Below, in pieces: positions 6,593 through 8,743 of a DNA stretch of 32,113 bases (its first letter is position 1; every line of letters begins with the position of its first letter). Made by a program: the position numbers and the translations under genes. Source of the stretch: a virus; the IMG/VR virus record IMGVR_UViG_3300038551_000051, positions 1-32,113 of that record; one strand, given 5' to 3'. Under the pieces are notes generated by a model. That model did not search any database. It was not told the DNA's origin and saw nothing but the letters and a program-made list of their open reading frames with translations.

Positions 6593-7327
6593 TTGAAGAT
6601 CCTCGTGCTCGACATCGAGACTGCCCCTGCAATCGTCTACACGTGGGGAATCCACAAGCAACATATCAACCCCGGGCAGATCATCCAGGACAAGCGGGTC
6701 CTGTGTTTCGCCGCCAAGTGGCTGGGCGAGAAGAAGGTCCACTTCTACTCCGAGTTCCATCACGGCGAGTGGTACTGGCCCGACCCGCTCTGGGACCTGC
6801 TCGATGAGGCGGACGCCGTGATCCACTACAACGGCACCTCGTTCGACATCCCGCATATCAACACGGAGTTCCTGCTCCGAGGCAAGACCCCGCCCTCGCC
6901 CTACGCCCAGATCGACCTGTGGCGCACGGTGCGCTCGCAGTTCAAGTTCATGTCGAACAAGCTCGACGAGGTGGCCAAGCGCCTGGAGATCGGCGAGAAG
7001 GCCGAGCACGAGGGCCTCGACCTGTGGAAGTCGTGCCTCGACGGCGACCCCAAGGCGTGGGCCAGGATGAAGGCGTACAACATCCAGGACGTGCGGCTGA
7101 CCGAGGCGCTCTACGAGAAACTGCTGCCGTGGATCAAGAGCCACCCGTCCGTGAACCTCGTGGCCGGCGTGTCCCATGCCTGCCCGTCGTGCGGCTCGAC
7201 CAACCTCCAGAAGCGTGGCGTGGCCCGCACCAAGGTGTCGACGTTCCAGCAGTGGCAGTGCAACGACTGCGGCTCGTACTCCCGCTCGGGCCGGCGCCTC
7301 GATGGCGTGGATGTCCGAGGCGTCTGA
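6593..7327 (+). CDS. DnaQ/RNase H-like 3'-5' exonuclease with C-terminal zinc ribbon
   Basis: A 244-aa protein. The exonuclease domain has Exo I LVLDIETAP (D7, E9), Exo II VIHYNGTSFDIPHI and Exo III AYNIQDVRLTEALY. These are the acidic residues of DEDD exonucleases, in the version seen in RNase_H_2/YprB-like proteins. From about residue 195 a zinc ribbon follows: CPSCGSTNLQKRG and WQCNDCGSYSRSGRR. It starts at TTG with AAGGA seven bases upstream. The polymerase already has its own proofreading domain, so this enzyme probably acts separately on DNA ends, RNA primers or host DNA. The zinc ribbon may direct it to its substrate. Confidence 0.85.
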   Translation: MKILVLDIETAPAIVYTWGIHKQHINPGQIIQDKRVLCFAAKWLGEKKVHFYSEFHHGEWYWPDPLWDLLDEADAVIHYNGTSFDIPHINTEFLLRGKTPPSPYAQIDLWRTVRSQFKFMSNKLDEVAKRLEIGEKAEHEGLDLWKSCLDGDPKAWARMKAYNIQDVRLTEALYEKLLPWIKSHPSVNLVAGVSHACPSCGSTNLQKRGVARTKVSTFQQWQCNDCGSYSRSGRRLDGVDVRGV

Positions 7328-7358
7328 CCGTGTTCCCTCCCGCACGAACGGAGAACTG

Positions 7359-7808
7359 ATGCTCAAGCTCGTTGACCGCAAGCACCCGGCTCTGCATCGC
7401 AAGGCCCGTGCCATCACCGAGGAAGAGGCGCCCTCGTTCCTCCCGCTGGCCAAGGACATGGTGGGCTACTGTCGCTCGGGCGCCAACCGCCTGGCCCTGG
7501 CAGCGCCCCAGGTCGGCCGGTCCGTGGCGCTCGTGGCCACCAAGACCGGCGACATGATAGCCAATCCGATCTGCACCGTTGATAAGAACGACCGGATCAT
7601 CACCCAGGTCGAGGGCTGCCTGTCGCTGCCCAGGCGTGGGTTCGCCGTTGAGCGGTTCGTGCGCTGCCAGGTGAGCGGGTTCCTGGTCGATGGGTGGGTG
7701 CCGGTCAACTTCGAGGCGCACGGCCTTGAGGCTCGCATCTGGCAGCACGAGTGCGACCATCTGTCGGGGTTCCTGATCTCTGACTTCTGGCCAGAGGTGG
7801 GGCTGTGA
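7359..7808 (+). CDS. peptide deformylase
   Basis: A 149-aa protein with the three signatures of peptide deformylase, the metalloenzyme that removes the formyl group from the N-terminal Met of new proteins: ALAAPQVG (Q51), EGCLSLP (C87 as metal ligand) and QHECDHLSG (H130, E131 and H134). Motif I normally reads GxGxAAPQ; here it is NRLALAAPQ, so the first two glycines are replaced. The rest of the fold is compact and lacks the C-terminal helix of many bacterial enzymes, as in other phage deformylases. ATG 7359 has GGAGA (7350-7354) at good spacing; longer in-frame versions overlap the exonuclease and are not real. The final TGA overlaps the next GTG. Confidence 0.9.
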   Translation: MLKLVDRKHPALHRKARAITEEEAPSFLPLAKDMVGYCRSGANRLALAAPQVGRSVALVATKTGDMIANPICTVDKNDRIITQVEGCLSLPRRGFAVERFVRCQVSGFLVDGWVPVNFEAHGLEARIWQHECDHLSGFLISDFWPEVGL

Positions 7809-8495: not shown

Positions 8496-8672
8496 GTGAT
8501 CGAGTGCTGGAGCTGTGAGCAGACGTTCGAGCCGAACCGTTGTCGGTGGCGCTGTCCGTACTGCGGGGCCAAGAACAGTTGCTGCGAGGGTGAGCCGCAG
8601 CGGGAGCACTACGGCCAGTTGCGTCTGTTCAACACGAGCAAGGCCCACGTGCTAGGCTCTGATTGGGCCTGA
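8496..8672 (+). CDS. zinc-ribbon microprotein
   Basis: A 58-aa protein from GTG 8496 with two zinc-binding Cys pairs close to the N-terminus: ECWSCEQTFEP and WRCPYCGAKNSCC. It then has a short basic and aromatic tail (HYGQLRLFNTSKAH). Small zinc ribbons of this type in phages often bind host RNA polymerase or nucleic acids, but nothing in the sequence identifies the partner. The start is predicted leaderless. The last 8 nt of the gene overlap the 5' end of the tRNA-like RNA at 8665, and the RNA promoter lies inside its coding region. Confidence 0.65.
   Translation: MIECWSCEQTFEPNRCRWRCPYCGAKNSCCEGEPQREHYGQLRLFNTSKAHVLGSDWA
8650..8658 (+). promoter_or_regulatory. extended -10 promoter TGCTAGGCT of the tRNA-like RNA
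   Basis: TGC plus TAGGCT, followed by exactly six bases (CTGATT), then G8665, the first base of the acceptor stem. The spacing equals that seen between -10 elements and leaderless start codons elsewhere in this window, so the RNA can start at its mature 5' end. Confidence 0.6.
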
Positions 8673-8743
8673 CCGGTTTCGACTGCGGTGAAATCCCCAC
8701 GTGGGCCCGCCGCAGGAACGGGGTTCGATTCCCCGCAGGTCCA
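8665..8743 (+). ncRNA. tmRNA-like tRNA-like domain without an mRNA-like domain
   Basis: Acceptor stem GGGCCTG (8665-8671) pairs with CAGGTCC (8736-8742) over seven pairs, including G3.U at 8667-8740, the alanine identity pair of tRNA-Ala and tmRNA. A stemless D region ACCGGTTTCGA follows; GACCGGTTTCGACT is the conserved start of actinobacterial tmRNA. CTGCGG (8683-8688) pairs with CCGCAG (8710-8715) in the position of tmRNA helix P2, enclosing only 21 nt that contain the palindrome CCCACGTGGG. The T arm is CGGGG-TTCGATT-CCCCG (8719-8735), followed by discriminator A8743; CCA is not encoded. A normal tmRNA carries some 250 nt with a tag reading frame and pseudoknots between the P2 strands. Here they are missing. 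A canonical tRNA is excluded because there is no D stem or 7-nt anticodon loop. Confidence 0.8.

Follow-up and report, generated by a model that had tools for sequence, protein, structure and literature searches.

The DNA analysed here (the window) is an IMG/VR virus record of 32,113 nucleotides that carries terminase, portal and capsid genes. On its plus strand lies a complete tRNA-like domain (TLD) of tmRNA, the RNA used by bacteria to free stuck ribosomes, without a message domain. The body of this mini-tmRNA measures 79 nt, discriminator A8743 included (Table 1); the start at 8650 given in the first-pass annotation took in a promoter-like box. A gene for peptide deformylase, a translation-linked protein, is located ~850 bp upstream, and a 58-aa ORF with CxxC-type pairs, zinc-ribbon-like and without a PHROG match, overlaps the 5′ end of the mini-tmRNA by its last 8 bases. 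A Pfam search of the 32-kb window, which may be a fragment, gave no match to integrase (PF00589), resolvase (PF00239) or SmpB.

Table 1. Features of the window at and around the mini-tmRNA, with the positions of a repeated box.
Feature	Position	Strand	Basis or remark
TGNTA(C/T)ACT boxes	4041, 5076, 5913, 6551	+	repeated box in window
Peptide deformylase gene	7236-7808	+	Pfam E=1.9e-24
58-aa ORF	8496-8672	+	
Extended -10 promoter-like box TGCTAGGCT	8650-8658	+	G1 of RNA at +7
Mini-tmRNA (message-less TLD)	8665-8743	+	held-out covariance model, Rfam RF00023, relatives
Acceptor stem, 5′ strand GGGCCTG, has G3 of G3·U70	8665-8671	+	7/7 pairs with 8736-8742
Stemless D region ACC-GGTTTCGAC, tmRNA type	8672-8683	+	few variants in sample not selected on D region
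P2 stem, 5′ strand, 8 bp in window (family core 5 bp)	8683-8690	+	fold and covariation
P2 loop: A-rich bulge and inner hairpin CCC-ACGT-GGG (8696-8705)	8691-8707	+	fold; at message-domain place
P2 stem, 3′ strand	8708-8715	+	fold
T arm CGGGG-TTCGATT-CCCCG	8719-8735	+	sequence, fold, Rfam match
Acceptor 3′ strand CAGGTCC and discriminator A	8736-8743	+	read from sequence
TGNTA(C/T)ACT boxes	19558, 20441, 28636, 29433, 30899, 31592	-	repeated box in window

The first-pass annotation had described a TLD fold with a 7-bp acceptor stem, a G3·U wobble, a stemless D region, P2 and a T arm, and both the coordinates in Table 1 and a held-out covariance model agree with this description. The D region of tmRNA is its SmpB-contact region. 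One T·G pair is present among the 8 bp of P2, and the signature of the inner hairpin, AAAGCCGCAYGCGGA, recurs in many relatives. CCA is not encoded at the 3′ end, where the discriminator is followed by CTA. When the sequence was folded singly, the acceptor, P2, an inner 3-bp hairpin and the T arm were recovered at -34.1 kcal/mol, an energy that is unremarkable relative to shuffled sequences (z=-1.2). Since this single-sequence value proves little, the support for the mini-tmRNA is comparative.

Covariance model R2, from whose training set the window was left out, assigned 80.3 bits (E=5.9e-20) to the mini-tmRNA and found no other match in the window at E-values up to 10. On the segment alone, the Rfam tmRNA model RF00023 scored 54.9 bits against a cut-off of 47, with 82 nt spanning model positions 1-374; both ends were matched and ~300 model positions were deleted in the middle. 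The elements that mark the TLD in RF00023 were all found (G3·U70 in a 7-bp acceptor, a stemless GG-TTCGAC D region and a T arm), and the segment is a homologue of tmRNA. The 17-21 nt between the P2 strands leave no room for a tag ORF and pseudoknots are absent, which bears out the earlier statement that the message domain and pseudoknots are missing.

Scans of the whole window with ARAGORN and with Rfam at its gathering cut-off missed the mini-tmRNA, and Rfam on the 301 bases around it returned only a truncated match of 16 bits. All 17 relatives that were scanned were assigned by Rfam to tmRNA and none to tRNA. A pattern-based finder with an acceptor check gave 0 matches in 15 Mb of shuffled sequence. 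In 595 bacterial genomes from two phyla, the best matches of the covariance model reached at most 43 bits and were mostly 73 nt in length; judging by this length, the best of them (38-43 bits) look like tRNA-Ala. None of the 595 genomes held a mini gene above 43 bits, and mini genes scored 49 to 94 bits in the loci tested. A genome-contig collection of 257 Gb contained 5 mini genes, 3 of them near recognisable head or packaging genes. BLAST of the region around the mini-tmRNA against phages gave no match.

Relatives were collected with the pattern GGTTTCGAC N25-55 GGTTCGATTCC, which matched in 115 viral stretches. The finder further demands a T stem of 5 bp and, outside the pattern, an acceptor partner of 7 nt. 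With the acceptor linker fixed at 3 nt, 52 places were accepted; with a linker of 3-6 nt and a larger locus set, 118 places were accepted among the collected loci, representing 91 distinct sequences, the window included. As these counts rest on exact patterns, they are lower bounds. The acceptor paired 7/7 in 117 of the 118 places, and G3·U70 and a discriminator A were present in every one. G3·U70 was not a search criterion and occurred in 91/91 distinct sequences, making the alanylation signal invariant. Lengths were mostly 77-80 nt, despite the range of 30 that the pattern permits, and the message domain was absent from all relatives. Clustering of 96 loci by neighbouring proteins at 70% identity produced 72 clusters, indicating that mini genes sit in many phage lineages, although 70 of the 96 loci were connected through one or more distantly related proteins.

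A second sample was selected on the inner hairpin alone (AAAGCCGCAYGCGGA N6-11 GGAC). Mini genes accounted for 43 of its 46 matches (25 distinct sequences, all with G3·U70), and one of the 3 failures, L342, also resembles a mini gene, with an imperfect T stem. Most D regions in this sample read GGTTTCGAC, and the others were close variants, among them GGTATCGAC and GGTTTTGAC. As the D region played no part in the choice of this sample, its conservation does not stem from the search pattern. A stop codon occupies the triplet preceding the inner hairpin in 30 of 69 cases, and a built-in stop is thus not universal.

Base pairing was then evaluated by covariation. Among 31 sequences, 15 of 20 pairs had changed on both sides. 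In a set of 30 sequences that excluded the window, 98.5% of cells pair, and the covariation score was 0.68, as compared with 0.13 after shuffling and at most 0.12 with slid partners. Compensatory changes, which the first-pass annotation had expected to be informative in the P2 and acceptor stems of relatives, were present in both and also in the T stem. Acceptor positions 4-6 vary freely, and acceptor pairs 1 and 3 are invariant. These observations demonstrate that the fold is conserved across the phages sampled.

We also considered how the RNA might be transcribed. The window has an excess of TGNTANNNT (21 occurrences vs. 8.7 expected; 0/100 shuffles). The repeated box TGNTA(C/T)ACT has a same-strand gene start within 125 bases downstream at 9 of its 10 sites, and in three cases the gene starts at +7, +8 and +10 from the box, i.e. 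it is leaderless; by sequence, this box looks like the phage's own promoter. The spacing between the box at 8650 and G1 of the mini-tmRNA matches that at sites before leaderless genes, although the box differs from the repeated core at two positions and a sigma-70-type consensus site was not found. The earlier claim that the RNA has its own promoter is therefore retained in part: the box and the placement of G1 are as described, and with two core mismatches and no sigma-70-type site the putative promoter is only plausible. In a family-wide scan of upstream regions, TANNNT at -12 was a weak signal (7/90).

Several known RNAs resemble the mini-tmRNA in part. One-piece tmRNAs (RF00023; in phages, e.g. 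Daubenski) share the acceptor with G3·U70, the stemless D region, the base of P2 and the T arm, but are ~280-370 nt long and contain a message domain, a tag ORF and pseudoknots, whereas the mini-tmRNA lacks all three. tRNA-Ala shares G3·U70, the T arm and a similar size; unlike tRNA-Ala, the mini-tmRNA has neither a D stem nor an anticodon arm. Permuted two-piece tmRNAs (RF04321, RF01851; e.g. in cyanophage S-CAM1) have the TLD elements in common with it, and the first-pass annotation had considered that the element might be one half of such a molecule. We reject this, as the mini-tmRNA begins with the 5′ acceptor strand and holds both acceptor strands, in normal order, in a single 79-nt piece, and the permuted model RF04321 scored 24.3 bits on the segment against a cut-off of 47.

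The closest precedent is mycobacteriophage DS6A, reported in 2014 as having a "TLD only" tmRNA (tmID 11587, tmRNA Website; Hudson, Lau & Williams, PMC4131195). On the basis of its published description only, this is the same kind of molecule, a phage RNA that is little more than a TLD, and the earlier statement that message-less tmRNAs are not known in phages does not hold. In the open-access literature consulted, TLD-only phage tmRNAs were known from this one case in one phage, as compared with ~100 phage copies here; judged against that literature, what is new is the scale, the invariant G3·U70 and the inner hairpin signature. A 2022 survey (PMC9004378) gives ARAGORN tmRNAs in 402 of 18,146 phages, in a passage that does not mention message-less tmRNAs.

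Cultured carriers include the Streptomyces phages BRock, GiJojo, LuckySocke, Alone3, pSt2308, Shaeky and Tomas and, outside this group, Stenotrophomonas phage Jojan60; some of them (Shaeky, GiJojo, LuckySocke, BRock; Jojan60) permit direct tests. In cultured carriers no RNA is annotated at the site, which often lies within a tRNA cluster; in Shaeky the mini-tmRNA fills a gap in the cluster. Across 96 loci, a tRNA was found within 1 kb of the mini gene in 30 and none within 1 kb in 66, and some of the tRNA clusters lie near RNA ligase genes. No protein neighbour was constant across loci, the most recurrent ones resembling, by eye, common phage genes such as those for terminase and capsid. When relatives of the window were traced by one conserved exonuclease gene, they had no copy of the mini-tmRNA, indicating that the gene is optional.

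The presence of the same reduced gene in ~100 other phage sequences makes it probable that the mini-tmRNA interferes with or bypasses the host ribosome-rescue system, and with its diverse carriers and invariant alanylation signal, manipulation of ribosome rescue looks like a common phage strategy. The most likely role, to which we assign a probability of roughly 0.5, would be that of a competitor, charged with alanine, that deprives host tmRNA of SmpB. The phage would express a free-standing TLD, which host alanyl-tRNA synthetase (AlaRS) would charge through G3·U70; SmpB would bind its D/elbow region, and EF-Tu would carry the charged molecule as it does Ala-tmRNA. Host tmRNA would lose access to SmpB and perhaps to the A site of stalled ribosomes, and host tagging and rescue would be dampened during infection, presumably to the benefit of the phage. 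Because it lacks a tag reading frame, the mini-tmRNA would not perform trans-translation and would instead act as a competitor. In favour of this role are a complete TLD homologous to tmRNA, loss of the message domain everywhere, covarying stems and a D region that is conserved in the second sample, together with the constancy of G3·U70, in samples chosen on other features, amid freely varying neighbouring acceptor pairs. According to a review, SmpB binds the TLD and a G-U third acceptor pair is the AlaRS determinant in tmRNA.

The first-pass annotation had suggested a decoy for AlaRS, SmpB or EF-Tu, and a published precedent exists: a passage in PMC4131195, citing Mao et al. 2009, states that a TLD-only-like molecule strongly inhibits tmRNA whether or not it can be charged, perhaps by titrating SmpB. 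As that inhibition does not depend on alanylation, however, titration alone fails to explain the invariant G3·U70; some step that needs charged RNA seems to be under selection, leaving room for use on the ribosome or for another decoy role. The lack of a constant neighbouring protein that would point to a pathway, and of the gene itself in the relatives traced by the exonuclease gene, also counts against the competitor role. One possibility, which we regard as tentative, is that the mini-tmRNA actively donates alanine in a tagless form of rescue. Charged with alanine and accompanied by SmpB and EF-Tu, it would enter ribosomes stalled at mRNA 3′ ends and accept the nascent chain, and ribosome and peptide would be freed by other factors, sparing phage proteins. 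The invariance of G3·U70 and of discriminator A points this way, since an RNA that only sequestered SmpB could do without either, as do the retained D region and T arm and the many copies in tRNA clusters (30/96 within 1 kb). On the other hand, there is no resume codon, so standard trans-translation would halt once a single alanine had been added, a release factor gene was not observed to accompany the mini-tmRNA, and fewer than half of the triplets preceding the inner hairpin are stop codons. A bolder and slightly more doubtful proposal is that phages widely use alanine-charged tmRNAs without a message domain to rewire host ribosome rescue; these would enter stalled ribosomes and end translation untagged, with the inner hairpin as a new functional element. 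It is unlikely that the RNA serves as a decoy for, or a replacement of, tmRNA or tRNA under attack by host nucleases or defence proteins, a role like that proposed for phage tRNA clusters. Frequent placement in tRNA clusters, some near RNA ligase genes, would fit such a role, as would the prediction of SmpB-like domains for CoCoNuT restriction systems (PMC11090510), but no direct nuclease link was seen and most loci (66/96) are without a tRNA within 1 kb.

Two non-functional origins fare worse than the competitor role. Full-length tmRNAs such as that of Daubenski do exist in phages, and a decayed pseudogene of one might resemble the mini-tmRNA, yet ~100 diverse copies share near-equal length, the inner hairpin signature and intact pairing, and the covariation contradicts decay; we consider this highly improbable. 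Host ssrA is a common integration site, and the first-pass annotation had raised the possibility of a remnant of recombination there. Several mycobacteriophages indeed have an ssrA 3′ end beside an integrase, sharing the 3′ T arm and acceptor end with the mini-tmRNA, but these sites keep the 3′ half only, have broken pairs and score 12-17 bits, whereas the window has both halves paired. With both ends of the TLD present, no Phage_integrase or Resolvase match in the 32-kb record and compensatory changes in relatives that would not persist in a scar, we reject an attachment-site scar, whose likelihood is lower still.

The mycobacteriophage sites in question are those of Milly, Validus and TClif (L303, L305, L307), where an unannotated ssrA 3′ end, probably the attP site, lies ~90 bases before a tyrosine integrase. 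Other RNA-like elements were noted among the collected loci. About 27 Microbacterium phage records (e.g. L119 2938-3027, L308 601-689) contain a ~90-nt RNA-like element beside tRNAs, nearly all unannotated; its form in Armstrong reads GGGCCTGACCGGCATCGCC...GGTCCA. We do not claim the Armstrong group as mini-tmRNAs, since its scores with model R1 (33-38 bits) fall within the bacterial background. One contig may hold a second, diverged mini-tmRNA (L013 5-81, 43.4 bits) in addition to the copy at 1317-1392. Synechococcus phage S-CAM1 carries an unannotated permuted tmRNA of cyanobacterial type, partly under a hypothetical protein (L299 1455-1723; RF01851, 128 bits). The "tmRNA" calls that ARAGORN makes in phages include false ones: at L022, L056 and L160, full tmRNAs were called that consist of a mini 3′ end joined to a false 5′ half, each with the remark "Tag not identified".
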